Positions 27,859 to 63,709 of a stretch of 64,000 nt of DNA are shown one piece after another. Below the pieces are notes generated by a model. The model was not told the DNA's origin, ran no database searches, and saw nothing but the letters and a program-made list of their open reading frames with translations. Source of the DNA: Pelosinus fermentans JBW45 (lineage in GTDB: Bacteria; Bacillota; Negativicutes; DSM-13327); NCBI RefSeq assembly GCF_000271665.2, contig NZ_CP010978.1, forward strand, positions 714,501 through 778,500, read 5' to 3'. Each line of letters begins with the position of its first letter. Positions within the stretch are counted from its first letter, which is position 1. The translations under genes and the position numbers were made by a program.

Positions 27859-29589
27859 ATGAAAATTCAAAAAAACTATAAGCATATACTGCTTGCAGCT
27901 ATCTTTAGTATCAGTCTTATATTTTCTGTTTCAGCTCCAGCCTATGCTGCTGATCCTACAGGTAAAACTGTAACTTCCATAACTGTCACTGGCAATACAA
28001 CAGTACCAGAAGCGACGATCATGGGTGCAGTAAAGTTGAAGCCTGGTGAAGCGCTGACAGCAGACAAAGTAAAACAAGACATGCAAGCGATCTATGAATT
28101 GGGTACTTTTTTTGATGTAGTATCCAACTTCAATGAAGTTCCTGAAGGGGTACAAGTAGTCTATACCGTGATGGAAAACCCAGTATTGCAGGAAATTATT
28201 ATAAAAGGCAATACCAAGGTATCATCCGATAAGCTAAGCAGTATGCTGACAGTTAAAACAGGCAGTATTTTAAATTCGAAAGCGTTAAATGAAAATGTAA
28301 GATCCATTGAAACATATTATCATGATCAAGGTTATATCTTGACCAAAGTCAGTGATGTTGCAATGGGAACTGGCGGTGTACTGACAATTACCATTAATGA
28401 AGGTATGTTGGAAGGCATCGAAGTGAAAGGCAACGAGAAGACAAAGACCCATGTTATTACTCGTGAAATGAAATTAAAGCCAAATCAGCCATTTAACGTA
28501 AAAGATGCGAAACGTAGTATGCAAAAAGTGTACAACCTAGGCTATTTTGAAGACGTAAATATGAAACTGAACCCAGGCAAAGAGCCCAATGCCATTGTTC
28601 TTGAAACCACAGTTGTAGAACAAAAGACAGGTCGGTTCTCCATTGGGGGCGGCTACAGTAAAAGTGATGGTATGATTGGGATTATTGAGCTTGGGGATGA
28701 CAACTTCCGTGGTACGGGAGATAAAGTGAAGCTTCATTGGGAGTTTGGCGGCAGTGCCAGCAACAAGAACTATGAAATAAGCTACACTCGCCCATGGCTG
28801 GACGACAAGCAAACATCCCTTGGTTTTAGCTTTTATGACATGACCAACGAATATAATGATTATTATGATGATGATGGAGATACGAAAGCCACTTATGACA
28901 AAAGGCGTAAAGGCTTTGATATTACCCTTGGTCGTCCGCAAGGTGAATATGTACAAAACTATATTACGTTAAAACAACGAAAAGATGAGTATGTGGAATG
29001 GGTATCAGGAGAAGATTATTCAAAAGATCCGACATATCTAAAAGATAATTTTGGCACAACTCGCAGTATTAGCTTAATGCGCGTATATGATTCTCGGGAT
29101 AATGTATTTAGTCCTACAGAAGGAAATCGTGTGGCTTTAACAGCAGAATTCGCCGGAAAAGCCTTAGGCGGTGATTTTAACTATAATAAATACACTGCTG
29201 AGACTCGGAACTATCTAAAGGTAGGTCATGCACAAGTTGTAGCGCTGCGGGGAACTGTCGGTTATGCAGATGGCAAAATGCCAGACAGCGGACGTTTTGC
29301 CGTAGGTGGCTCTGATACACTCCGTGGTTACCGTGATGATCAGTTTAAAGGTAATAAAATGCTGGCCGCTACAGCAGAATATCGCTTCCCAATTGCTAAA
29401 AAAGTAGAAGGCGTAGCCTTTACTGATGTTGGTAAAGCATGGTCAGAGGAAGGATACAAGCTGAATGATCTAGAGGCTAGTGTGGGTGTGGGGATTCGTG
29501 TTTCTACACCAATCGGTCCGATTCGTCTTGATTATGCGCAAGGCAGTCAAGGCGGTAGAAGTCACTTTAGCTTTGGCGGACAATTCTAA
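27859..29589 (+). CDS. bamA: Outer-membrane protein assembly factor BamA (Omp85)
   Basis: 576 aa with a signal peptide ending AYA. Three POTRA domains can be traced (about 35-110, 111-185 and 186-260; each opens with SITVTGNTTVPEATI, EIIIKGNTKVSSDKL and GIEVKGNEKTKTHVI). This is fewer than the five of E. coli BamA. A 16-strand-type barrel follows, with the Omp85 motif LRGYRDDQFKGN and the closing GPIRLDYAQ...FSFGGQF ending in Phe. It inserts beta-barrel proteins into the outer membrane. AGGAGG precedes the ATG. Neighbours are tamB upstream and Skp/OmpH genes downstream. Confidence 0.95.
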   Translation: MKIQKNYKHILLAAIFSISLIFSVSAPAYAADPTGKTVTSITVTGNTTVPEATIMGAVKLKPGEALTADKVKQDMQAIYELGTFFDVVSNFNEVPEGVQVVYTVMENPVLQEIIIKGNTKVSSDKLSSMLTVKTGSILNSKALNENVRSIETYYHDQGYILTKVSDVAMGTGGVLTITINEGMLEGIEVKGNEKTKTHVITREMKLKPNQPFNVKDAKRSMQKVYNLGYFEDVNMKLNPGKEPNAIVLETTVVEQKTGRFSIGGGYSKSDGMIGIIELGDDNFRGTGDKVKLHWEFGGSASNKNYEISYTRPWLDDKQTSLGFSFYDMTNEYNDYYDDDGDTKATYDKRRKGFDITLGRPQGEYVQNYITLKQRKDEYVEWVSGEDYSKDPTYLKDNFGTTRSISLMRVYDSRDNVFSPTEGNRVALTAEFAGKALGGDFNYNKYTAETRNYLKVGHAQVVALRGTVGYADGKMPDSGRFAVGGSDTLRGYRDDQFKGNKMLAATAEYRFPIAKKVEGVAFTDVGKAWSEEGYKLNDLEASVGVGIRVSTPIGPIRLDYAQGSQGGRSHFSFGGQF

Positions 29590-52052: not shown

Positions 52053-52100
52053 TTCCCCTCTTTTGAGAGGGGGGCCGTAGGGCGGGATGTGTTCATCCCC
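52053..52100 (+). repeat. CCCCTC-type repeat (second family), copy 1
   Basis: TTCCCCTCTTTTGAGAGGGG followed by GGCGGGATGTGTTC. The same layout occurs at 56425 and 61781. It ends 20 bases before the lpxL copy 2 start. Confidence 0.7.
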
Positions 52101-52119
52101 TACAGAAAGGAGGTCGCCA

Positions 52120-53052
52120 ATGTCTAATGCTTGGCAGTACTATTTACTAAAAGTGTTGAGTTTTTTAATCTGTTTATTACCGTATAAAGGTGTTTTATTG
52201 TTAGGGAAGATTCTGGGCAAACTATATTATCGTATTGCTGCACGGCAGAGGCGGCGAGCTTTACTGCAGATACAAGAATCGCTGGGAATTTCGTTAGAAG
52301 TTGCCCAAAAGCATATTGACAGTTTGTTTATTAAATTGGGGCAAACGTTTGTAGAGATGCTGTATATGCCTGCTCTCACGTTAGATAGATTGCATCAATA
52401 TATTACGATAGAAAATCGTCATTTTCTTGCTGAAGCAGTAGAGCAAGGACGAGGTGTGGTTCTGCTTACAGCTCATGTGGGCAATTGGGAATGGCTGGGA
52501 GCTTCTTTGGCAATGGATGGTTTTCCACTGGCGGCTGTGATTAAGCGTCAGCCCAATGACCAGCATACTAGAATCCTAAATGAATACCGCGAAATGGCGG
52601 GGATTGAAATTTTTGCCCGAGGTACTACCGAATTAGTCAGTGCGGCAAGGGCTCTGAAAAAAGGTAAAATTCTTGGATTTTTAGCGGATCAGGATGCAGG
52701 CACTACGGGCTTATTCATTGAATTTCTAGGTAAAATGTCTTCTACTCCAATCGGACCGACAGTGTTTGCCAAAAAATTTAAGGCTCCTGTTGTACCGGTT
52801 TTTATGGTTCGTAAACCCGAAGGCGGGCATCGAATTATCATTCATGAACCTTTTTATTATGAAGATACAGGTAATGAAGTAGAAGATAACTATAAAATTA
52901 CAGTTAAGATGACGCATATTATTGAAAACACCATTCGAGAATATCCCGATGAATGGCTATGGTTTCAAAAACGCTGGAATACAGCTTATTCTGAAGATAA
53001 TGTGAAGTATGAGCAAAGTATATCCCCGGAAAGGATAGGTAAACAGGCATGA
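52120..53052 (+). CDS. lpxL: Lipid A late acyltransferase, LpxL/HtrB family (copy 2)
   Basis: 310 aa. TAHVGNWEWLGASLAMDGFP holds the HX4E catalytic pair (HVGNWE), and GFLADQDAGTTGLFIEFLGK and STPIGPTVFAKKFKAPVVPV the other conserved blocks. The N-terminal membrane helix (SFLICLLPYKGVLLLGKILG) and basic RIAARQRRRALLQI are typical. I use ATG 52120 behind AAAGGAGG. The stop overlaps the lptC start by four bases, tying late acylation to LPS export. It differs from copy 1 (35127) throughout, so this is not a recent duplication. Confidence 0.92.
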   Translation: MSNAWQYYLLKVLSFLICLLPYKGVLLLGKILGKLYYRIAARQRRRALLQIQESLGISLEVAQKHIDSLFIKLGQTFVEMLYMPALTLDRLHQYITIENRHFLAEAVEQGRGVVLLTAHVGNWEWLGASLAMDGFPLAAVIKRQPNDQHTRILNEYREMAGIEIFARGTTELVSAARALKKGKILGFLADQDAGTTGLFIEFLGKMSSTPIGPTVFAKKFKAPVVPVFMVRKPEGGHRIIIHEPFYYEDTGNEVEDNYKITVKMTHIIENTIREYPDEWLWFQKRWNTAYSEDNVKYEQSISPERIGKQA

Positions 53053-53603
53053 AAAAGAAAGCAGGAATGATTCTTGCCTGTATTATAATACTAGTAAGTG
53101 GTTTGTATTACTTTTTAAAAGATGAACCCCTTACCCAAACTCCTCCGGAAGAGCCAAAGGATCAACAAACCTCGAAACTCGCTTATGTGGGAAATTCGAT
53201 TGTGGAACAAAAGGATGGAAAACCCCTGTGGGAATTAAAGGCTGAGTTCATTGAAATTGATGTGGATACAAAGAATGTACTACTAAAAAATCTGGTAGGA
53301 ACCTTTTATCAGGAAAAAGGTGGTAAAATTGAAATCACAGCCCCAAAGGCATTTGTGGACAGCAAAACAAAAGACATTACCATGTCTGTAAAAGTGCAGG
53401 CTACAGCAAGTGACGGCACAACTTTTACAGCCAATGAGGCTCGTTGGTCGAGTACGGACCAAAAAGTATATGGTTCTGGCAATGTCATTTTTACTAAAGA
53501 TGATACGGTGCTTACAGGGGATAAAATAGAGAGTGATTCCAATATGGAGAAAATAAAAGTATTTGGCAATGCTAAGGTCGTAAAAGGAGGAGTGTCCAAA
53601 TGA
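53049..53603 (+). CDS. lptC: LPS export protein LptC
   Basis: 184 aa. A single N-terminal membrane anchor (residues 6-23) is followed by a periplasmic OstA-like beta-jellyroll (KPLWELKAEFIEIDVDTKNV, LTGDKIESDSNMEKIKVFGN). LptC receives LPS from the LptBFG transporter and passes it to LptA. It overlaps lpxL upstream and lptA downstream, each by four bases. Confidence 0.9.
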   Translation: MKKKAGMILACIIILVSGLYYFLKDEPLTQTPPEEPKDQQTSKLAYVGNSIVEQKDGKPLWELKAEFIEIDVDTKNVLLKNLVGTFYQEKGGKIEITAPKAFVDSKTKDITMSVKVQATASDGTTFTANEARWSSTDQKVYGSGNVIFTKDDTVLTGDKIESDSNMEKIKVFGNAKVVKGGVSK

Positions 53604-54313
53604 AGTCTAAAATAGTGAATATAACTCTTGGGTTAGTACTCTCCCTTAGCGTAATTTCCTATAGTTATGCGGATTCTAATAAACCAGTAGAACTGGCGGC
53701 AGATACCATTGAATATGATTCAGTAAAAGGTATTATGACAGCCCAGGGCAATGTCCGCATCGTGCAGGAGAATGCTGTCATGACGGGCACTAATGCAGAA
53801 TATAACAGCAAAACAAAAGAAGCTCATATATATGGTGGTGTCCAGGTTGTACAAGAAGATGCCACATTGTTAGCTGAAGAAGTGAATTCCTATGATAATA
53901 ATCACATCGTTGCCATCGGTAACCCGATATTAACCAAAGGGAACAGTCGATTGGACGGTCCTCAAATTGATTATTATTCAGACAGGCAGTATGCCGTCGT
54001 TAACGGCTGGGCACGCTTAGAAACAGAAGACAGCACCCTGACAGCCAACCAAATCGAATCCTTCTTTAGTGAAGATCGTGCCGTGGCTCAGGGAGATGTG
54101 CATATTGTTAGTGATGCACGTAAGCTAGATGCCGTAGCAGATCATGCCGTATATTATGGCAGTAAAGATCAGCAGGGGAAAACCGTCTTAACCGGTAATG
54201 CCAGAGCAGTACAAGAGGGGAATGTACTAACCGGAAACACTTTAACTCTATACATGGACAATAAAGTCATAGATGTCCAAGGCCGCAGCAAGTTAGTTAT
54301 AACTCCGCAGTAA
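53600..54313 (+). CDS. lptA: LPS transport periplasmic protein LptA (OstA)
   Basis: 237 aa with signal peptide ending SYA. The OstA beta-jellyroll repeats are clear: VELAADTIEYDSVKGIMTAQ, GNVRIVQENAVMTGTNAEYN, YDNNHIVAIGNPIL, LTGNTLTLYMDNKVIDVQG. LptA polymerises into the bridge that carries LPS across the periplasm. It is somewhat longer than E. coli LptA (185 aa), with extra strands. The neighbour lptB follows after a repeat-filled gap. Confidence 0.92.
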   Translation: MKSKIVNITLGLVLSLSVISYSYADSNKPVELAADTIEYDSVKGIMTAQGNVRIVQENAVMTGTNAEYNSKTKEAHIYGGVQVVQEDATLLAEEVNSYDNNHIVAIGNPILTKGNSRLDGPQIDYYSDRQYAVVNGWARLETEDSTLTANQIESFFSEDRAVAQGDVHIVSDARKLDAVADHAVYYGSKDQQGKTVLTGNARAVQEGNVLTGNTLTLYMDNKVIDVQGRSKLVITPQ

Positions 54314-54344
54314 AACACTATGGGTAGTGTCCGTTTCTCTTTTT

Positions 54345-54500
54345 GAACCACAAAGGCACAATGCCGCTGATGCGGCACACTATGGAGAGTCCCAAACAAT
54401 AATTTATTAATAAAAACCCCTTTGTGTCCTTTGCGTCTTTGTGGTTCAAAATAATTAATTTATCTTTTCTCTGCGTTCTCTGTGTCTCTGCGGTTCAAAC
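54345..54500 (+). repeat. CTTTG-type inverted repeat plus CTCTG arm between lptA and lptB
   Basis: 54345-54450: GAACCACAAAGGCACAATGC, an inner GCCGCTGATGCGGC stem, then right-arm units CTTTGTGTC, CTTTGCGT, CTTTGTGGTTC. A CTCTG arm follows at 54466-54500 (CTCTGCGTT, CTCTGTGT, CTCTGCGGTTC). It is the longest gap inside the lpt operon (227 bases). Confidence 0.8.
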
Positions 54501-54540
54501 TCTCAAGAAATATCTCAGCTTTAGAGCAAGGAGTTTTCAT

Positions 54541-55263
54541 ATGTATATTGAAACATTTAACTTAGTAAAAACCTATAAAGATCGTAATGTGGTAGATGGT
54601 GTCAGTCTTAGAGTCAATCAGGGCGAGGTTGTTGGTTTATTGGGACCAAATGGTGCTGGTAAAACCACTACATTTTATATGATTGTTGGTCTAGAACGCC
54701 CCAATGATGGGATGATTGTCATTAATGATCAAGATGTAACTGATATGCCCATGTACCGTCGTTCGAACTTTGGTGTAGGATATCTCCCTCAAGAAGCATC
54801 TGTATTTCGAAAACTTACAGTAGAAGATAATATTATGGCAATACTAGAAACGACTAAACTTACTGCTTCTGAGCGTAAGGAAAAGGCAGAAAGTTTGCTA
54901 GATGAATTTAATATCAATCATGTTGCAAAACGAAAGGGTTCCCAGCTGTCTGGAGGGGAGCGTCGCCGTGTAGAGATTGCTCGCTGCTTGACTACGGATC
55001 CAGCCTTCATCTTACTCGATGAGCCTTTTGCTGGGGTTGACCCCATCGCTGTAGCCGATATCCAGCAGATTATCGGATATTTAAAACAACGAGGAATTGG
55101 TGTGCTTATTACGGATCACAATGTGCGGGAAACATTAAGCATTGTCGATCGTGCATATATTTTAAACGAGGGACAGATTTTGATTCACGGTGATGCCATA
55201 ACCATTGCAAATAGTGAAATTGCTAGGAAATTCTACCTTGGAGAGAATTTCAGCTTAAAATAG
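54541..55263 (+). CDS. lptB: LPS export ABC ATPase LptB
   Basis: 240 aa. LptB powers LPS extraction by LptFG. Walker [41 protein letters not shown] (the LptB-type Q-loop), signature [20 protein letters not shown] and Walker [17 protein letters not shown] identify it well. I use ATG 54541 with AAGGAG in front; the frame reads back through the repeat to 54424 with no site. Confidence 0.97.
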
Positions 55264-55276
55264 TAGGGAGAATTGT

Positions 55277-56365
55277 ATGCGTATACTTGATAAATATATA
55301 GTCAAAGAACTACTAGGTCCTTTTATATTTGGTATTGCTTCCTTTTCCAGTGTTTTTATTGGCACAAGTACTTTGATGAGAATTGCCCAATATGTAACTC
55401 AATACGGAGCATCCTTGAATTCGGTAGTCAAATTATTCATTTACAGCCTGCCAGCGATTGTTGTTTTAACTTTCCCCATGTCGATGCTGCTGGCAGCATT
55501 GCTAGCTTTTGGCCGACTATCCGGTTCTAGTGAAATCACCGCGATGCGTTCCGGGGGCATTAGCTTTTATCGTTTATCTGCTCCAGTGTTTGTTATTGCT
55601 TTTTTCGTCAGTATTTTTGCTGTCTTCTTCTCTGAAATGGTAGTTCCTCAATCCAATTCAGCATATAATTATGTAGTGCGCTATGAAATTCAAAAAAATA
55701 CGGCACCCAAGTCCCAGGAACATATTATCATTAAAGATGTCAAAGGCGATATATTAGAAAGACTAACTTACGCTCGTAAATTTGAAGAAGAGACCAATAC
55801 CATGTATGCGGTATCGATGCAGGAATTTGATAATGGCACTTTAGTACGGGTAGAAAATGCAGAAAAAGCTGTGTGGCAGGATAATCGTTGGACCATGATC
55901 AATGGGGTCATTCATGATTTGACAGCGGAGGGTAACCTTGAGCGTACCATGCACTTTGAACAGCAGATTATGCCAATGGCAAAAGCGCCAACTGCCATTT
56001 CTCGGGAACAGAAAAAACCAGATGAAATGACAATTAAAGAATTAAAGCAGCATATTAAAATATTAGACAGAGAGTATGTCAACGCCAAAAAATATGAGAT
56101 GGAATTGCAGCAGCGATTAGCGATTCCCGTAGCCAGTTTTGTTTTTGCATTGATTGGCACCCCATTAGGGTTACAGCCCAACCGCTCTAGTTCCTCCATA
56201 GGTCTTGGAATTAGTATTATTATCATCTTTGTATATTATGCGATTATGACAGTTTTCACAGCATTGGGACAAGGCGGTGCCCTTCCTGTGGTTCTCGCTG
56301 CTTGGATACCCAATATCATCGGCATCATCGCAGGTGCCCTCCTAGTACGCAAAGCCTCACGGTGA
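55277..56365 (+). CDS. lptF: LptF/LptG-family LPS export permease
   Basis: 362 aa. YjgP/YjgQ family: six membrane segments in two groups of three (three N-terminal, three C-terminal) with a periplasmic jellyroll between. RILDKYIVKELLGPFIFGIA, ALLAFGRLSGSSEITAMRSG and RLAIPVASFVFALIGTPLGL are signatures. Proteobacteria encode two different subunits; only one gene is found here, so the complex may be a homodimer or the second gene lies elsewhere. GGGAG precedes the ATG, 13 bp after lptB. Confidence 0.93.
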   Translation: MRILDKYIVKELLGPFIFGIASFSSVFIGTSTLMRIAQYVTQYGASLNSVVKLFIYSLPAIVVLTFPMSMLLAALLAFGRLSGSSEITAMRSGGISFYRLSAPVFVIAFFVSIFAVFFSEMVVPQSNSAYNYVVRYEIQKNTAPKSQEHIIIKDVKGDILERLTYARKFEEETNTMYAVSMQEFDNGTLVRVENAEKAVWQDNRWTMINGVIHDLTAEGNLERTMHFEQQIMPMAKAPTAISREQKKPDEMTIKELKQHIKILDREYVNAKKYEMELQQRLAIPVASFVFALIGTPLGLQPNRSSSSIGLGISIIIIFVYYAIMTVFTALGQGGALPVVLAAWIPNIIGIIAGALLVRKASR

Positions 56366-57880: not shown

Positions 57881-57912
57881 GAATCCTGCTTTTAAAGCAG
57901 GATTCTTTTTTC
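57881..57912 (+). terminator. Terminator after the DUF3084 gene
   Basis: GAATCCTGCT pairs with AGCAGGATTC around TTTAA and is followed by TTTTTTCTTTT. Confidence 0.9.
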
Positions 57913-57972
57913 TTTTGGCGAAATAGATAGTTATAAAGTTTATGTAAACAATATATATTTTTTTAACATTCA

Positions 57973-57988
57973 ATGACTAAATAGTCAT
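57973..57988 (+). promoter_or_regulatory. Palindromic operator candidate upstream of ompM1
   Basis: ATGACTAAATAGTCAT, with the same GACT-N4-AGTC half-sites as 20502, 41113 and 63847. It lies 83 bases before the structured leader. No confident -35/-10 pair was found beside it. Confidence 0.5.
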
Positions 57989-58070
57989 GCGTTGTAGAGA
58001 AAGGAAATTACCAATATTTACACATGGGTATTAAGCAGGAATAAAAAAAGATATATAGAATTATGTAAAC

Positions 58071-58154
58071 TAGAACCTGTAAAAAGCGACAGGGGCATGA
58101 AAGGGATAGATGATGCAAGGATGAACGTTCTAATGAGGAAACGTGGAAACTCAT
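58071..58154 (+). ncRNA. Structured 5' leader of ompM1 (unnamed motif)
   Basis: TAGAAC (58071) pairs with GTTCTA (58127-58132) and encloses a CCTGT/ACAGG hairpin and a GCAT/ATGC hairpin, a three-way junction. Next comes the hairpin ATGAG, loop GAAACGTGGAAA, CTCAT (58133-58154). The loop and stem recur before ompM2 and ompM3. Confidence 0.6.
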
Positions 58155-58237
58155 GAAACACTCCTTGATTCAATAGCTCTTATCATGTTGGTGATAGCAC
58201 CCGCGAAAAAACAACATTTTAAGGGGGATCTTTCCAA

Positions 58238-59356
58238 ATGAACAAGAAACTTTTAAAAGTAGCAGTGACTACTGCACTGGCTGCCAGCATGGCAGTACCA
58301 GCATTCGCAAACCCATTTTCCGATGTACCTGCAAAACACTGGTCATACGATGCAGTAAACAAATTGGCTCAAGCTGGTGTGGTTGAAGGTTATGGCGATG
58401 GCACTTTCAGAGGCGACAAAACCGTTACTCGTTATGAAATGGCACAAATCGTAGCAAATGCTATGACTAAATCCTTGAATGCAGACCAAAAAGCAACTGT
58501 AGATCAATTGTCCAAAGAATTTGCTACTGAATTAAACACATTGGGTGTAAAAGTAGAAGGAATGCAAGATCAAATTGACAAAATGGTAAAAATTTCTGGT
58601 GATGCTCGTGTACGTTATACAAATGTAGAAGATGAAGGCGACAAAACAGATCTTCGTACTCGTGTTTCCTTTGATGGTAACATCAATGAAGACGTTAAGT
58701 ACAACGCTCGCTTAAGTGGAACTTTCCAACCTAACGAAAACAACCAAACAGTTGGAATTAAATTAGACACTGCTAACGTATCTTTCAATGCTCTTGGTGC
58801 TGATGCTACTGTAGGTCGTCAAGATGTTCTTTTAGGATCAGGTATTATGTTTGATGACAAATTGACTGGTCTTGGATTGCAAGCTGGTGGTTTGAAATTG
58901 TATGCAGGTAATAATACTGGTACTAATGATGCAGATTCAGAACGCATGTATGCTGCTGAATACGGTGTTAATATTTTTGGTGCAAAAATAACTGCTGATT
59001 ACCTAAAAAATGGCGATAACAAAGCATATGGAATTAATGGTTCAGCTCCAATTACAAGCGGCGTAACTGCTCTTGCAGACTATGTTAAAAACGATTCCAA
59101 TGACGCTGACGCTACTGCTTTTGGTGTGAAACTTAACAAACTTGGATTGACTGTACTTCACAGAGATGCAGATGCCGGTGTTTACAACGCTTACTCTAGT
59201 GCAGATGTAATTGCTCTTCCTACTGATCAAGCAATTAAAGGTATGGAATATCAATTCGATAAATCTCTTACTAAGAACGCTGACTTAAAAGTTAAATACC
59301 AAGATTTCGATAACATGAATGCACGTACTTCTGCAGCTGTTAACGTAAAATTCTAA
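58238..59356 (+). CDS. ompM1: OmpM-type SLH-domain outer-membrane porin (copy 1)
   Basis: 372 aa. The signal peptide ends AFA. One SLH domain follows (about residues 25-80; FSDVPAKHWSYDAVNKLAQA, EGYGDGTFRGDKTVTRYEMA), then a helical stalk (SLNADQKATVDQLSKEF to about 120) and a beta-barrel ending in VNVKF. In Negativicutes, OmpM proteins span the outer membrane and bind peptidoglycan (often polyamine-modified) through SLH, tethering the two layers. It is shorter than copies 2 and 3, and its barrel differs most. AAGGGGG precedes the ATG; a long structured leader and a palindrome lie upstream. Confidence 0.92.
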   Translation: MNKKLLKVAVTTALAASMAVPAFANPFSDVPAKHWSYDAVNKLAQAGVVEGYGDGTFRGDKTVTRYEMAQIVANAMTKSLNADQKATVDQLSKEFATELNTLGVKVEGMQDQIDKMVKISGDARVRYTNVEDEGDKTDLRTRVSFDGNINEDVKYNARLSGTFQPNENNQTVGIKLDTANVSFNALGADATVGRQDVLLGSGIMFDDKLTGLGLQAGGLKLYAGNNTGTNDADSERMYAAEYGVNIFGAKITADYLKNGDNKAYGINGSAPITSGVTALADYVKNDSNDADATAFGVKLNKLGLTVLHRDADAGVYNAYSSADVIALPTDQAIKGMEYQFDKSLTKNADLKVKYQDFDNMNARTSAAVNVKF

Positions 59357-59368
59357 AACTACTCTTTA

Positions 59369-59395
59369 CAAAAGCACCCTCCGGGGTGCTTTTGC
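59369..59395 (+). terminator. Terminator after ompM1
   Basis: CAAAAGCACCC pairs with GGGTGCTTTTG; a short T-rich tail follows. Confidence 0.85.
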
Positions 59396-59408
59396 TTGTC
59401 TTATGATA

Positions 59409-59440
59409 TCCCTTTGTGTCCTTTGCGCCTTTGTGGTTCC
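59409..59440 (+). repeat. CTTTG-type single-arm repeat
   Basis: Units CCTTTGTGT, CCTTTGCGC, CTTTGTGGTTCC, after the ompM1 terminator. Confidence 0.75.
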
Positions 59441-59569
59441 TTTATTTTATATGTTTTAAAGGACGCGTAACGTTTTTCTAATAAAAATTAATTTCAAAAT
59501 TAGCAGGATAATTCAATTAAACATAGAATGATTATCAATATCAAATAAAATACCTAGTAAAGTATTAGT

Positions 59570-59606
59570 TTGAGAAGACTGATTTACTACATGTATTGTA
59601 GTAAAT
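59570..59606 (+). promoter_or_regulatory. Candidate promoter with TACA/TGTA dyad for ompM2
   Basis: TTGAGA (59570-59575), 18 bases, TATTGT (59594-59599). The dyad ATTTACTACA (59582-59591) / TGTAGTAAAT (59597-59606) covers the spacer and -10 region, an arrangement suited to a repressor. Confidence 0.4.
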
Positions 59607-59612
59607 GCACAA

Positions 59613-59686
59613 GAGTGAGCATTTTTCTAAAAAGTGTGGAGTTGAGGAAACTTGGAAACTCAAGATCAGCTTTTTAGATTTCACTC
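59613..59686 (+). ncRNA. Structured 5' leader of ompM2 (unnamed motif)
   Basis: Nested stems GAGTGA/TCACTC, CTAAAAAG/CTTTTTAG and TTGAG/CTCAA form one long hairpin closed by the loop GAAACTTGGAAA (59647-59658). The apical part matches the ompM1 and ompM3 leaders. Confidence 0.65.
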
Positions 59687-59719
59687 AGGGAAAAAATTAA
59701 CCTTAAGGAGAAATCGAAC

Positions 59720-60961
59720 ATGAACAAGAAAATGGTAGCAACTCTTGCAGCTGCAATGGTACTTGGCATAGCCGGTACATCATTCGCTGCAACCAATCCT
59801 TTCACAGACGTCCCTGCAAAACACTGGTCCTATGATGCGGTAACAAAACTAGCTAAAGCTGGTATTGTTGACGGTTATGGCGATGGCACTTTCAGAGGGG
59901 ACAAAACCATCAGCCGTTATGAAATGGCTCAAATCGTTGCAAAAGCACTAGCTCATTCTGACAGAGCAACTGCCCAGCAAAAAGCTTCTATCGACAAATT
60001 ATCCGTAGAATTTGCGGAAGAATTAGAAGGACTTAATGTTCGGGTAACGAAATTGGAGAAAAATTCTTCGACCATTAAAGTGAGCGGAGAAGCTCGTCTA
60101 AAATTTGAAGATACGGATAAAACGGATAGTGGGTTTAACTTACGGTCTCGCATAAACCTTGATGGTGCGATTAATGATGAATGGTCCTACTATGGCCGCC
60201 TACAAGCTGAGAATAACTTAAAAGGTGAAGGCGATACGAAAGTCACAATGGATAACGCTTTCGTTAAAGGACCAATTTTAGGAACGACCGCTACGATTGG
60301 ACGCTTTGATTACTTCCTGAATAATGGCTTAATGATTGATAGTACACTGAATGGTGTCAATGTTGAAGTTGGTAATGTAGTAAAAGCAAATCTATTCTAT
60401 GGTAAAGATAATAATAATGATGTGTTTGGTCTTGAAGACGATGTACACTTAACGGTAGCTGGTGTAGGCTTGGATTATGCAGCTTCTAAAGCAACTAGTC
60501 TGAATGGCGGTTATTATCAATTCGAAAATAAAGATGATTCCAGCTATTTTGATACTGATGGAGATAAACGTAAAATCTGGGAAGCTGGCTTTAAAACTCA
60601 ATTAACAAATAACTTCTCATTAACTGGTTCATATGGTAAGTCTGATGCAAATACAGGCGATACCGCTTATTATGGGGAAATTGGTTATAAAGGTGCTGAT
60701 CAAGCTGAAGTTGGTTCCTATGGCGCATGGGTGAACTACCGCCACTTAGAAGCCAATGCCGCTCCTTATACTACTTTCGATGGTCCTTATGCATTTGATT
60801 CCCAAGCTGACGGCGGCAAAGGGTACGAGATCGGATTGAGCTATACTCCGATTTTGAATACCGTTCTTACCGTTAAATATGCTGATTTGAAAGCAACAAC
60901 CGATGGTAGTTCTTCCGATAAGACAAAATACTACCTAGCACAAGCAGAGTTCTTTTTCTAA
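59720..60961 (+). CDS. ompM2: OmpM-type SLH-domain outer-membrane porin (copy 2)
   Basis: 413 aa. Signal peptide ending SFA; SLH domain (about 25-80; FTDVPAKHWSYDAVTKLAKA, DGYGDGTFRGDKTISRYEMA); helical stalk with ATAQQKASIDKLSVEFAEEL; and a barrel with alternating strands such as YYGRLQAENNLKG, ATIGRFDYFLNNGLMID and AGVGLDYAASKATSLNGGYY, ending in AQAEFFF. The terminal aromatic run is an outer-membrane insertion signal for BamA. It is closely similar to copy 3 over its whole length, so these two are the more recent paralogs. AAGGAG precedes the ATG. Confidence 0.93.
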   Translation: MNKKMVATLAAAMVLGIAGTSFAATNPFTDVPAKHWSYDAVTKLAKAGIVDGYGDGTFRGDKTISRYEMAQIVAKALAHSDRATAQQKASIDKLSVEFAEELEGLNVRVTKLEKNSSTIKVSGEARLKFEDTDKTDSGFNLRSRINLDGAINDEWSYYGRLQAENNLKGEGDTKVTMDNAFVKGPILGTTATIGRFDYFLNNGLMIDSTLNGVNVEVGNVVKANLFYGKDNNNDVFGLEDDVHLTVAGVGLDYAASKATSLNGGYYQFENKDDSSYFDTDGDKRKIWEAGFKTQLTNNFSLTGSYGKSDANTGDTAYYGEIGYKGADQAEVGSYGAWVNYRHLEANAAPYTTFDGPYAFDSQADGGKGYEIGLSYTPILNTVLTVKYADLKATTDGSSSDKTKYYLAQAEFFF

Positions 60962-60974
60962 AACATCATCCCAG

Positions 60975-61006
60975 AAACCGTTGGCTTTATGCCAGCGGTT
61001 TTTTTA
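60975..61006 (+). terminator. Terminator after ompM2
   Basis: AAACCGTTGGC pairs with GCCAGCGGTTT (one G-T pair) around TTTAT, followed by TTTTT. Confidence 0.88.
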
Positions 61007-61232
61007 TATGTAAGTTGTATAATCATATAATCGTTTTTGATCGTTTACCGATGAATACAAATACAATTCAAATGGTATTTTATTATGATATAAAAATGTA
61101 CTTTAAATCAATATTCGACGAGATTATTTAAAAGTTTTAAAAATTTTAGGGATGCTGCAATAAGATATAGATGGTAAGAGATGGAGCAAATAATGATCTT
61201 TATAAGTTAAAACAAAAGAAGGAGAATTCTTT

Positions 61233-61529
61233 ATGCGAATTGTTATATTATGCATCGTTGTTATTATACTGATGATACCAGTTTGTAGTGCAGAAAATAC
61301 AGTGCATCAAGTTGAGGACTCTATGGCGATGGATAAATGGGCTCATTTAGGTTTGGGGTACATCATGAATGATCAGTTAAAGAAGCAAACGAAATTAACA
61401 GCTGTTGAGCGATTTTTAGCAGTATGGACAGTCGCATATGCTAAAGAAAAATGGGCAGATTCAAAATTTGATCGGAACGACATGATCGCCACTATGGCAG
61501 GCGGTTTAGTTTATGAAGCTAAATTCTAA
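61233..61529 (+). CDS. Small secreted protein, unknown function
   Basis: 98 aa with a signal sequence (RIVILCIVVIILMIPVCSA). The mature part has MDKWAHLGLGYIMNDQL and an ending RNDMIATMAGGLVYEAKF. DKWAH...GYI followed by a D-x-x-A-T-x-A-G-G tract is reminiscent of small YfiM-like envelope proteins, but I cannot place it firmly. GGAG precedes the ATG and a terminator follows, so it is a single-gene unit between two ompM genes. The gap before it (60962-61232) contains only the ompM2 terminator and AT-rich sequence. Confidence 0.65.
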   Translation: MRIVILCIVVIILMIPVCSAENTVHQVEDSMAMDKWAHLGLGYIMNDQLKKQTKLTAVERFLAVWTVAYAKEKWADSKFDRNDMIATMAGGLVYEAKF

Positions 61530-61565
61530 TTGGCATAAATCAATTCCCGCAGTAAATTGTTCTGT

Positions 61566-61603
61566 AGTCATCCAACCTTTGATTAGGTGGATGACTTTTT
61601 TTG
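61566..61603 (+). terminator. Terminator after the small secreted protein gene
   Basis: AGTCATCCAACC pairs with GGTGGATGACT and is followed by seven T. Confidence 0.88.
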
Positions 61604-61780
61604 TACAGGTGCCACACTCAATAAGTATATAAAGTAGAAGCTTGTAATCACTAGAGTTATATAACTATGTCGTCAAATCGAAAAATGCAAAAAGCTTCAA
61701 AGGAATCTAACAAAAGAAATAGAACAGTAACCTTATTATAGAAAATTCCTTCTAGAGGGGTGACTGACTATAATAGATAT

Positions 61781-61819
61781 TCCCCTCTAGAGAGGGGTGC
61801 CTGAAAGGCGGGGTGTGTC
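61781..61819 (+). repeat. CCCCTC-type repeat, copy 3, abutting a start codon
   Basis: TCCCCTCTAGAGAGGGGTGC, then CTGAAAGGCGGGGTGTGTC. Its GGGGTG end is the only ribosome site for the GTG at 61820. An inverted partial copy (TTCTAGAGGGGTG) lies at 61750-61762. Confidence 0.65.
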
Positions 61820-62242
61820 GTGACCACTAACCAAACCATTATCAGCATCGACCCAGGACGAGAAAAATGCGGTATTGCTGCAGTCCATCAAGAAAAGGGT
61901 GTACTGCAGAAGAATATCATACCAACCCAAGACTTACCTTCTATTATTAAAGAGTGGCTTAGCACGTACCATACGAAAACTGTGATTATGGGAAATGGCA
62001 CTTCAAGCAAAGATGCCAAAAATCTATTAGAAAAAATCCTGATAAATGGACAATTCCTTGAAGTGACTTTAGTAGATGAATACCGAACGACCGACGATGG
62101 CCGCCGCCGCTACTGGCAGGAAAATCCCCCTCAGGGCTTTTGGCGTCTGATACCTGTGACTATGCAAACACCGCCTCAGCCAGTTGATGACTATGTTGCT
62201 GTAATACTGGCAGAACGTTATCTGGGAAAAGTTAACAAATAG
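61820..62242 (+). CDS. YqgF/RuvX-like RNase H-fold protein
   Basis: 140 aa, GTG start. IISIDPGREKCGIAAVHQEK has the DxG...G opening of the YqgF/RuvC RNase H fold. TVIMGNGTSSKDAKNLLEKI and VTLVDEYRTTDDGRRRYW fit the second and third catalytic regions, and PVDDYVAVILAERYL supplies a final acidic residue. YqgF proteins process pre-16S rRNA, but this divergent version carries an extra Arg-rich insertion, and its role is uncertain. Its ribosome site comes from the upstream repeat. The last codons overlap the GTTAACAAA repeats. Confidence 0.7.
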   Translation: MTTNQTIISIDPGREKCGIAAVHQEKGVLQKNIIPTQDLPSIIKEWLSTYHTKTVIMGNGTSSKDAKNLLEKILINGQFLEVTLVDEYRTTDDGRRRYWQENPPQGFWRLIPVTMQTPPQPVDDYVAVILAERYLGKVNK

Positions 62243-62261
62243 TTAACAAAAAGTTAACAAA
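62231..62261 (+). repeat. Three GTTAACAAA direct repeats with an 11-base period
   Basis: GTTAACAAA at 62231, 62242 and 62253. The first overlaps the end of the YqgF-like gene. The spacing keeps them on one face of the helix. Confidence 0.6.
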
Positions 62262-62263
62262 TT

Positions 62264-62283
62264 TTTTGTATAAATATACAAAA
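62264..62283 (+). promoter_or_regulatory. Perfect 20-base palindrome upstream of ompM3
   Basis: TTTTGTATAAATATACAAAA is perfectly self-complementary. It directly follows the GTTAACAAA repeats and lies 70 bases before the ompM3 leader hairpin; it may be an operator. Confidence 0.5.
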
Positions 62284-62353
62284 TGTAAGAAGGAAAATAA
62301 TATATTATGGAGAATATACTAGAAAGTGAGGTAAGATCTGACAGCATTAAGAT

Positions 62354-62407
62354 ACTAATAAGGAGAGATTGAGGAAACATGGACACTCAATTAGGAACCC
62401 TTCTTAG
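62354..62407 (+). ncRNA. Structured 5' leader of ompM3 (unnamed motif)
   Basis: An outer stem CTAATAAGG/CCTTCTTAG (one mismatch) holds the apical hairpin TTGAG, loop GAAACATGGACA (62374-62385), CTCAA. It has the same loop pattern as the ompM1 and ompM2 leaders. Confidence 0.6.
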
Positions 62408-62464
62408 GCTTATCATGGTAAGATCACCGAACAAAAATAAAAAAACCTAAGGAGAGATTCTAAC

Positions 62465-63709
62465 ATGAAAAAGAAATTAGTAGCTTCCTTGGCAGCTGCA
62501 ATGGTACTTGGCGTAGCTGGTACATCATTCGCTGCATCCAACCCTTTCGTAGACGTTCCTGCAAAACATTGGTCCTATGACGCGGTAACCAAACTAGCTA
62601 GCGCTGGTATCGTTGACGGTTATGGCGATGGCACTTTCAAAGGTGACAAAACCATCAGCCGTTATGAAATGGCTCAAATCGTCGCAAAAGCAATGGCTCA
62701 TTCTGACAAAGCAACTGCTGAGCAAAAAGCTTCTATCGACAAATTGTCCGTAGAATTTGCTGACGAATTAGAAGGCTTGAATGTTCGTGTAACGAAATTG
62801 GAAAAAAATTCTTCCACTATCAAAGTAACTGGTGAAGCTCGTTTGAGATATGAAGATTATAGTGATGATACTGGAGCAACATGGAAATTACGTAATCGAA
62901 TACACCTCAATGGTAATATCAACGATCAATGGAGTTATTATGGTCGCTTACAGGCTGAAAATAATTTAAAAGGTGACACTGATACCAGTGTGACTATGCA
63001 TAATGCATATGTAAAAGGGAATATCGCAGGCACTACTACTACTATCGGACGCTTTGACTATTTCTTGAATCATGGTATGCTGATTGATAGTCAATTAAAC
63101 GGTGCGAATGTAGCATTTGGTAATGTAGTAAAAGCAAATGTATTCTATGGTAAAGACAATAGCAATAAACTTTTTGGTAATAAAGCTAGTGATAATGGCT
63201 ATTTAACTGTAGCTGGTGTGGGCTTAAACTATGCAGCATCGAAAGCTACTAGTCTTAATGGTGGTTATTATCAATATGAAAGTAAAGATAATGCAAACTA
63301 TTTTGGTGATGGGGATAAACGTAAAATCTGGGAAGCTGGATTCAAAACCCAATTTGCAACTAATTTCAATCTATTAGGTTCATATGCAAAATCAGATGCT
63401 GATGCTGAAGATACAGCATACTTTGCTCAAATTGGCTATAAGGGTGCTAACAAAAGTAAAGTTGGATCTTATGGCGCATGGGTTCAATACCGTAATATTG
63501 AAGGTACTGTAGCGCCTGCTACTACGTTTAATGGCGTATTCACTAAAGAACATGGCCAAGCTAATGGTGGTAAAGGCTTTGAAGTAGGGTTTAACTATAC
63601 TCCTGTATTAAATACTGTACTTCGTGTGAAATATGCTAAAATTGAACCAACTGCTATTTCTTCTGAAAAGGTTGATTTCTACCAAGCACAAGCTGAATTC
63701 TTTTTCTAA
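62465..63709 (+). CDS. ompM3: OmpM-type SLH-domain outer-membrane porin (copy 3)
   Basis: 414 aa. Signal peptide ending SFA; SLH domain (FVDVPAKHWSYDAVTKLASA, DGYGDGTFKGDKTISRYEMA); helical stalk (ATAEQKASIDKLSVEFADEL); barrel with TTIGRFDYFLNHGMLIDSQL and AGVGLNYAASKATSLNGGYY; end AQAEFFF. It is near-identical to copy 2 in the first 120 residues and diverges mainly in the predicted outer loops. It should serve as another porin and outer-membrane tether. AAGGAG precedes the ATG and a strong terminator follows. Confidence 0.93.
   Translation: MKKKLVASLAAAMVLGVAGTSFAASNPFVDVPAKHWSYDAVTKLASAGIVDGYGDGTFKGDKTISRYEMAQIVAKAMAHSDKATAEQKASIDKLSVEFADELEGLNVRVTKLEKNSSTIKVTGEARLRYEDYSDDTGATWKLRNRIHLNGNINDQWSYYGRLQAENNLKGDTDTSVTMHNAYVKGNIAGTTTTIGRFDYFLNHGMLIDSQLNGANVAFGNVVKANVFYGKDNSNKLFGNKASDNGYLTVAGVGLNYAASKATSLNGGYYQYESKDNANYFGDGDKRKIWEAGFKTQFATNFNLLGSYAKSDADAEDTAYFAQIGYKGANKSKVGSYGAWVQYRNIEGTVAPATTFNGVFTKEHGQANGGKGFEVGFNYTPVLNTVLRVKYAKIEPTAISSEKVDFYQAQAEFFF

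Follow-up and report, generated by a model that had tools for sequence, protein, structure and literature searches.

In Pelosinus fermentans JBW45, a stretch of 64,000 nucleotides (nt; contig NZ_CP010978.1, positions 714,501 to 778,500, here called the window) carries the genes ompM1, ompM2 and ompM3, and the leader of each holds a stem-loop with a strongly conserved tip. The new data indicate that this stem-loop recurs before porin genes in three phyla, and it has the appearance of an ancient element governing the supply of outer-membrane proteins. Specifically, the explanation favoured here, with moderate confidence, is an RNA element that acts in cis on the mRNAs of outer-membrane proteins: a near-5'-terminal stem-loop with a nearly invariant tip that would set porin mRNA lifetime or translation via a docked factor. 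The computed evidence comprises conservation, a covarying stem, sense orientation before barrel genes, near-complete restriction, in a Bacillota sample, to genomes with Omp85 and, in a subset of loci, a stem base at the predicted transcription start.

An earlier note on this DNA had described hairpins with 12-nt loops in the three leaders, at 58138-58149 (ompM1), 59647-59658 (ompM2) and 62374-62385 (ompM3). All three are confirmed, with the stems as described, ATGAG/CTCAT in ompM1 and TTGAG/CTCAA in ompM2 and ompM3. TGAGGAAACNTGGAMACTCA, a 20-base pattern around the loops, was searched with up to three mismatches and has three matches in the window, precisely the ompM loops, against a chance expectation of 0.01; none of 100 shuffles reaches three. 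The hairpin of five base pairs given in the note is present, but it is merely the tip of a longer stem-loop, 74-99 nt in the folded window leaders. Recurrence, covariation and pairing controls give strong support to the note's broader claim that the leaders share a regulatory RNA element conserved under selection.

The conserved part is an 18-nt core with the consensus [G/A]AGGNAACNNGGNNACU[C/U]. Base frequencies within it are biased, since the search patterns prescribed most core letters and, at positions 9-10, T or R-T; with this proviso that the patterns required them, 11 of the 18 positions barely change across three phyla. The loop is more conserved than the stem. The core end pair covaries, from G-C to A-U: among 237 copies, pair 1-18 is G-C in 226, A-U in nine, and G-U and A-C in one each (the pattern admitted only G/A and C/T at these ends), and the third phylum has four copies with G-C and four with A-U. 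One OmpM-like tip outside this set (L092) has a T-C mismatch there. The architecture of the tip may be read in two ways that are not separable, as stacked non-Watson-Crick pairs within the loop (G4-A15, A7-G12) or as two tandem G-GNNA-C units.

Beyond the core the flanks have almost no sequence conservation, yet about 19 further pairs are formed. The outer stem has 18.8 pairs and an energy of -20.9 kcal/mol, compared with 10.05 pairs and -12.4 kcal/mol when 3' flanks are swapped between loci, and with 10.3 pairs when flanks are shuffled; for 135 of the 198 loci, 95% or more of the flanks sampled from other loci fold less well than the locus's own 3' flank. The same difference between own and swapped flanks is seen in the phylum of a metagenome-assembled genome (MAG) titled Atribacteria (18.2 versus 9.4 outer pairs, n=16), in a Bacillota sample (18.2 versus 10.5, n=25) and in the third phylum (13.8 versus 7.6, n=5), while core copies in other settings form just 8.6 pairs (n=15). 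Because own flanks form more pairs than swapped flanks or the surroundings of off-context cores, core and stem belong together, as RNA; the sense orientation together with the covarying flanks likewise favours an RNA element over a DNA-level operator. In the alignment A2, held in fixed register, 62.8% of cells are paired versus 55.5% after shuffling (none of 500 shuffles reaches this), and sliding A2 by -1 raises the covariation score to 0.303, above the 0.266 of the true register, because bulges shift the register. Before the conservation, OmpM-start and shuffled-flank analyses, 13 loci were removed (211 to 198 rows): L098, on a Selenomonadaceae contig and probably real; L073, from a class genome with no porin after it; and L085, L112, L115, L119, L128, L144, L148, L152, L157, L185 and L189, copies from other organisms that have no porin-like gene after them.

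Recurrence before homologous genes in related genomes, which the earlier note had proposed as a check, was found within the window's class, the Negativicutes. The pattern occurs in 226 of 300 class genomes, against 18 of 300 for a reversed-pattern control, a count that allows one mismatch and includes some chance matches and some not before porins, and in 10 of 10 genomes of the window's order. The repeated GCGGTAACCTGGAAACTC, in L072 inside another gene, is an example of a non-porin match. Among the matches listed, at least 120 stretches, the carriers include Veillonella, Selenomonas, Mitsuokella, Sporomusa, Pectinatus, Schwartzia, Propionispira and Dialister as well as MAGs titled Limnochordia, Bacillota and Atribacteria. 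Of the 120 matches listed, 14 are stray copies in other organisms that no porin gene follows; they are attributable to chance, for which about 45 matches are estimated over the 257 Gb collection. In one class-sample family, f4, the pattern is present in just 2 of 17 genomes; both genomes tested (G012, G042) have Omp85, and the element may have been lost or changed in this lineage.

The covariance model that the note had also envisaged, R1, was built from 110 copies and detects the element well outside the class. At E <= 0.001, the phylum of the Atribacteria MAG has the element in 27 of 50 genomes and the third phylum in 5 of 7; across Bacillota, 45 of 299 sampled genomes have it, seven of these 45 from the window's class. 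The last figure is a lower bound, as 16 candidates were scored per genome under strict filters and G052, which has two pattern matches, was missed. L111 (the Atribacteria MAG) and L118 and L153 (third phylum) were in the training set and match by construction, which does not apply to the other genomes of these phyla. Omp85 is present in 77 of the 299 Bacillota genomes, specifically in 44 of the 45 that bear the element versus 33 of the 254 others (Fisher p 2e-30), so that the element tracks the outer membrane across these sampled genomes. In Veillonella parvula SKV38, three R1 matches cluster at 1517-1521 kb, and this species has four OmpM paralogues (PMC10628300).

R1 scans gave 83 loci, and in the 79 whose core was recognised by pattern the same-strand downstream gene has a signal-peptide-like start in all but L240, at a contig end; the distance to the gene is mostly 33-184 nt, with 265 nt in L284. 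The remaining four are L249, L252 and L255, from the Atribacteria MAG's phylum, in which the loop has one extra base (GAGGAAACATTGGATACTC) and SLH porins follow, and L237 (E 0.007), a false match inside an open frame with no porin after it. From core end to start codon the distance is 54-136 nt (5-95%). The element precedes genes for SLH porins (OmpM) and for other porins as well as, in one case, a TonB receptor gene; of ten downstream proteins from several loci compared with Pfam, five exceed the cut-off (SLH and Porin_4 two each, a TonB-dependent receptor one), two show weak barrel matches only and three have no match. A C-terminal phenylalanine is the usual end of the outer-membrane barrel signal. 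It terminates 168 of 175 distinct complete downstream proteins, among them 22 of the 24 that have no SLH-like start, versus 11.7% of 538 other long open reading frames at the same loci; the downstream proteins were selected by signal peptide and not by last residue. Such a start, recognised by a short pattern in a sample rich in Negativicutes, is present in 151 of the 175. Conversely, 176 of 179 OmpM-like starts have a core within three mismatches, compared with 2 of 179 after shuffling, although these loci were mostly chosen for containing the motif. One SLH porin gene is preceded by a tandem pair of elements, 262 nt apart (L017, G001:C87:88839 and 89101).

Variation within the tip bears on several candidate partners. 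Core position 13 is A in 93% of copies (weighted, in a set partly chosen for A there), and C, T or G in a minority yields GGC, GGT and GGG tips. The earlier note had suggested a CsrA target, and the element does resemble CsrA/RsmA hairpin sites in having GGA in a hairpin loop; CsrA was also found in 163 of 300 class genomes, the window's own (G000) included. The third GGA base varies, however, and the carrier family f25 has no CsrA match in any of its 28 genomes while 26 of them carry the pattern. The absence in f25 and the non-GGA tips exclude CsrA as a general partner, and a CsrA/RsmA site is now highly improbable. In enterobacteria, porin mRNAs are classic targets of small RNAs, which speaks for pairing of the tip with such an RNA, with or without Hfq. 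On the other hand, loop positions 9 and 14 differ among paralogues within one genome, and searches for Hfq gave no match in V. parvula SKV38, in any of five further f25 genomes and three f35 genomes tested or in 19 of 19 tested element-bearing genomes of the Atribacteria MAG's phylum, some of them incomplete. With matches in only 37 of 79 carriers tested, Hfq is rejected as a universal partner, and a small-RNA target is very unlikely. The tip could also open a short upstream reading frame, read as GAGG-NAAC-[A/G/T]TG. A start-like codon is present in 190 of 240 tips (most collected by searches favouring T at that place), and frame 0 is somewhat more open, with an early stop in 124 of 240 versus 142 and 173 in the other frames; stops overlapping the main start as ATGA number 28 in the tip frame, against 20 and 15. 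Against this, distances to the main start spread over the three residues modulo 3 as 71/90/79, frame-0 stops are scattered, and AAG, CAG, AGG and TAG occur at the codon position. The modulo-3 spread and the non-start variants led to rejection of the upstream reading frame, to which hardly any credence is given.

What remains is the position of the hairpin on its transcript. Promoters were predicted with an approximate sigma-70 matrix; the best ones exceed the shuffled 90% level at 103 of 191 loci, with the ends of the -10 boxes clustering 31-40 and 51-60 nt before the core. A good promoter at 28-75 nt is predicted for 81 loci, and in these the cross-hairpin pairing probability is 0.1-0.3 upstream and 0.4-0.55 from the predicted start site onward. 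After four loci without outer pairs were set aside, 56 of the remaining 77 stems have their base no more than 3 nt from the predicted start site, versus 89 of 185 when the offsets are permuted (p 4e-4). Judged by these predicted start sites, the element is likely to be a 5'-terminal hairpin in many copies and may be one in the window leaders. The note's idea of an mRNA-stability element agrees with the frequent start of the stem at the predicted start site, a coincidence not seen in the window's three leaders.

The available data are compatible with a model in which a long imperfect stem-loop, its 18-nt tip nearly invariant, stands at, or close to, the transcript's 5' end. The stem would hide this end from 5'-end-dependent decay of the RppH, RNase J or RNase E type; the tip would serve as the docking site of a putative factor, neither CsrA nor Hfq; and the docked factor would adjust how long porin mRNAs last, or how well they are translated, to the needs of the envelope. 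Bacillus subtilis RppH requires at least two unpaired 5' nucleotides, and in Bacilli 5' hairpins protect strongly, a paired 5' end slowing 5'-end-dependent decay (PMC3997798). Slowing such decay is the most likely role of the stem. Since stem protection alone leaves the conservation of the tip unexplained, a bound factor is proposed, and this is the simplest explanation of the conserved tip.

The main competitor is a passive 5' stabiliser without a trans partner, in which the tip is a well-folded cap. Its precedent is the 5'-terminal stem-loop of Escherichia coli ompA, which acts by position; if the positional argument holds, both are 5' hairpins on abundant outer-membrane-protein mRNAs. The near-5'-terminal position in the scored subset agrees with such a role, as does the rank of OmpM1 and OmpM2 as first and third most abundant V. 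parvula outer-membrane proteins (PMC10628300). Any stable loop would serve as a cap, however, whereas here the tip is conserved over three phyla, and a purely passive role is rather unlikely. In layout, the element also has an analogy in the animal iron-responsive element, which combines a conserved apical loop with a sequence-variable paired stem in the 5' leaders of a regulon.

Several results weigh against a docked, near-5'-terminal element. The start sites are predictions; just 81 of the 191 scored loci, some of them mutually related, passed the promoter filter; and the best-scoring promoters of the three window leaders are not at the stem base, ompM2 having a weaker one at 59570-59599 with its start about 7 nt before the stem. 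An invariant tip would be superfluous for a purely protective hairpin, and no partner was found. Furthermore, 33 of the 77 Omp85-bearing Bacillota genomes gave no R1 match, the window's genome has 12 SLH genes, five of which lack a copy within three mismatches, and R1 finds nothing at E <= 1 before the seven SLH genes outside the ompM cluster.

The relation to known RNAs gives a further alternative. In the comparison with Rfam that the note had called for, Rfam 15 yielded no matches above the gathering cut-off in the window and in 17 loci, and an E-value scan of 57900-62470 gave nine matches, the best at E 1.5 and none near the cut-off. The element is uncharacterised, one of the options in the note, with respect to Rfam, and less clearly so with respect to the literature: the 'SLH motif' riboswitch candidate of Stav et al. 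(2019) overlaps with it in taxa and genes. This motif has 80 examples, was found from Thermovirga lienii, occurs in Synergistaceae, Clostridia and Negativicutes and precedes SLH genes in about 60% of cases; its ligand is not known, with cyclic di-GMP guessed (PMC6429828). Like the present element, it lies upstream of SLH-domain genes and has Negativicutes among its carriers. That the SLH motif is the present element, captured by a narrower model, has close to an even chance on a comparison of descriptions; against it, 80 examples are few for an element in most sampled class genomes, and none of the 120 titles among the matches listed names Synergistota. Should the two be identical, what would still be new is a broader range of carriers and downstream genes, a long stem that covaries, a position close to the 5' end and the finding that neither CsrA nor Hfq is the general partner. 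Apart from the SLH motif paper, the searched literature holds no report of the element, many subscription papers lying outside the search. A metabolite riboswitch, with the 12-nt tip as an aptamer for an envelope-related signal, gains from this published candidate (PMC6429828) and from a loop conserved beyond its stem. The three window leaders have no terminator-like hairpin on the + strand, and the distance from core end to start codon leaves the Shine-Dalgarno sequence not directly covered. A 12-nt loop on one hairpin is also very small for an aptamer, and a riboswitch is improbable.

In the 5.38 Mb genome, the ompM cluster at 772-780 kb holds five strong copies, of which three fall inside the window and two shortly after it; all five SLH genes of this cluster carry the element. 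Outside it, one SLH gene has a diverged copy (two mismatches) and one a possible copy (an inserted base, three mismatches). A terminator-like hairpin downstream of an SLH gene (L045 519-588, G000:4943018-4943087) has a core-like tip, GAGGAAATATAGACACTC, and an R1 E of 0.07, and was treated as a chance resemblance. The leader stem-loops, their cores and the three ompM genes all lie on the + strand. The ompM1 leader stem-loop spans 58095..58188, with the core GAGGAAACGTGGAAACTC at 58135..58152 and an R1 match at 58111-58180 (37.8 bits, E 2.6e-8; L001); it precedes ompM1 (58238..59356), an open reading frame of 372 amino acids with a signal peptide and SLH (Pfam SLH E 1.5e-16). For ompM2 (59720..60961, 413 amino acids, SLH at G000:774298), the stem-loop lies at 59613..59686, the core plus closing pair, TGAGGAAACTTGGAAACTCA, at 59643..59662 and the R1 match at 59620-59689 (36.3 bits; L002). 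The ompM3 stem-loop occupies 62330..62428, the core plus closing pair, TGAGGAAACATGGACACTCA, 62370..62389 and the R1 match 62347-62416 (46.7 bits, E 4.3e-11; L003), before ompM3 (62465..63709, 414 amino acids, SLH at G000:777043). These three loci belong to the R1 training set, and only the ompM2 stem-loop folds clearly better than its own shuffles (z -3.05, versus -1.87 for ompM1 and -1.31 for ompM3). Upstream of ompM1, at 52087-56365, are genes resembling a lipid A acyltransferase, LptC, LptA, LptB and LptF/G, and an Omp85 family match lies at 28702-29577, which makes the window part of a large outer-membrane biogenesis cluster. Between ompM2 and ompM3, an open reading frame of 140 amino acids (61820-62242), starting MTTNQTIISIDPGREKCGIAAV, presumably resembles RuvC/YqgF-type nucleases.

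How diderm Firmicutes and their related phyla control the supply of outer-membrane proteins is not described in the searched papers. Since the mRNAs of porins and tethers in three phyla share a homologous RNA element, there is now a direct handle on this control, with the tip usable as bait for the factor, and the element marks outer-membrane genes of unknown families. As a tentative extension, less probable than the cis-acting element itself, porin mRNAs that start with a homologous stem-loop may form an RNA-level outer-membrane-protein regulon, in which the tip would bind a conserved factor reporting envelope state; such a regulon would be possibly ancestral to diderm Bacillota and Atribacterota and a counterpart of the sigma-E/small-RNA control of Proteobacteria. 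OmpM has been proposed as a possible ancestral tether in Terrabacteria (PMC10628300), and the element bears in turn on the age of outer-membrane control in this group.

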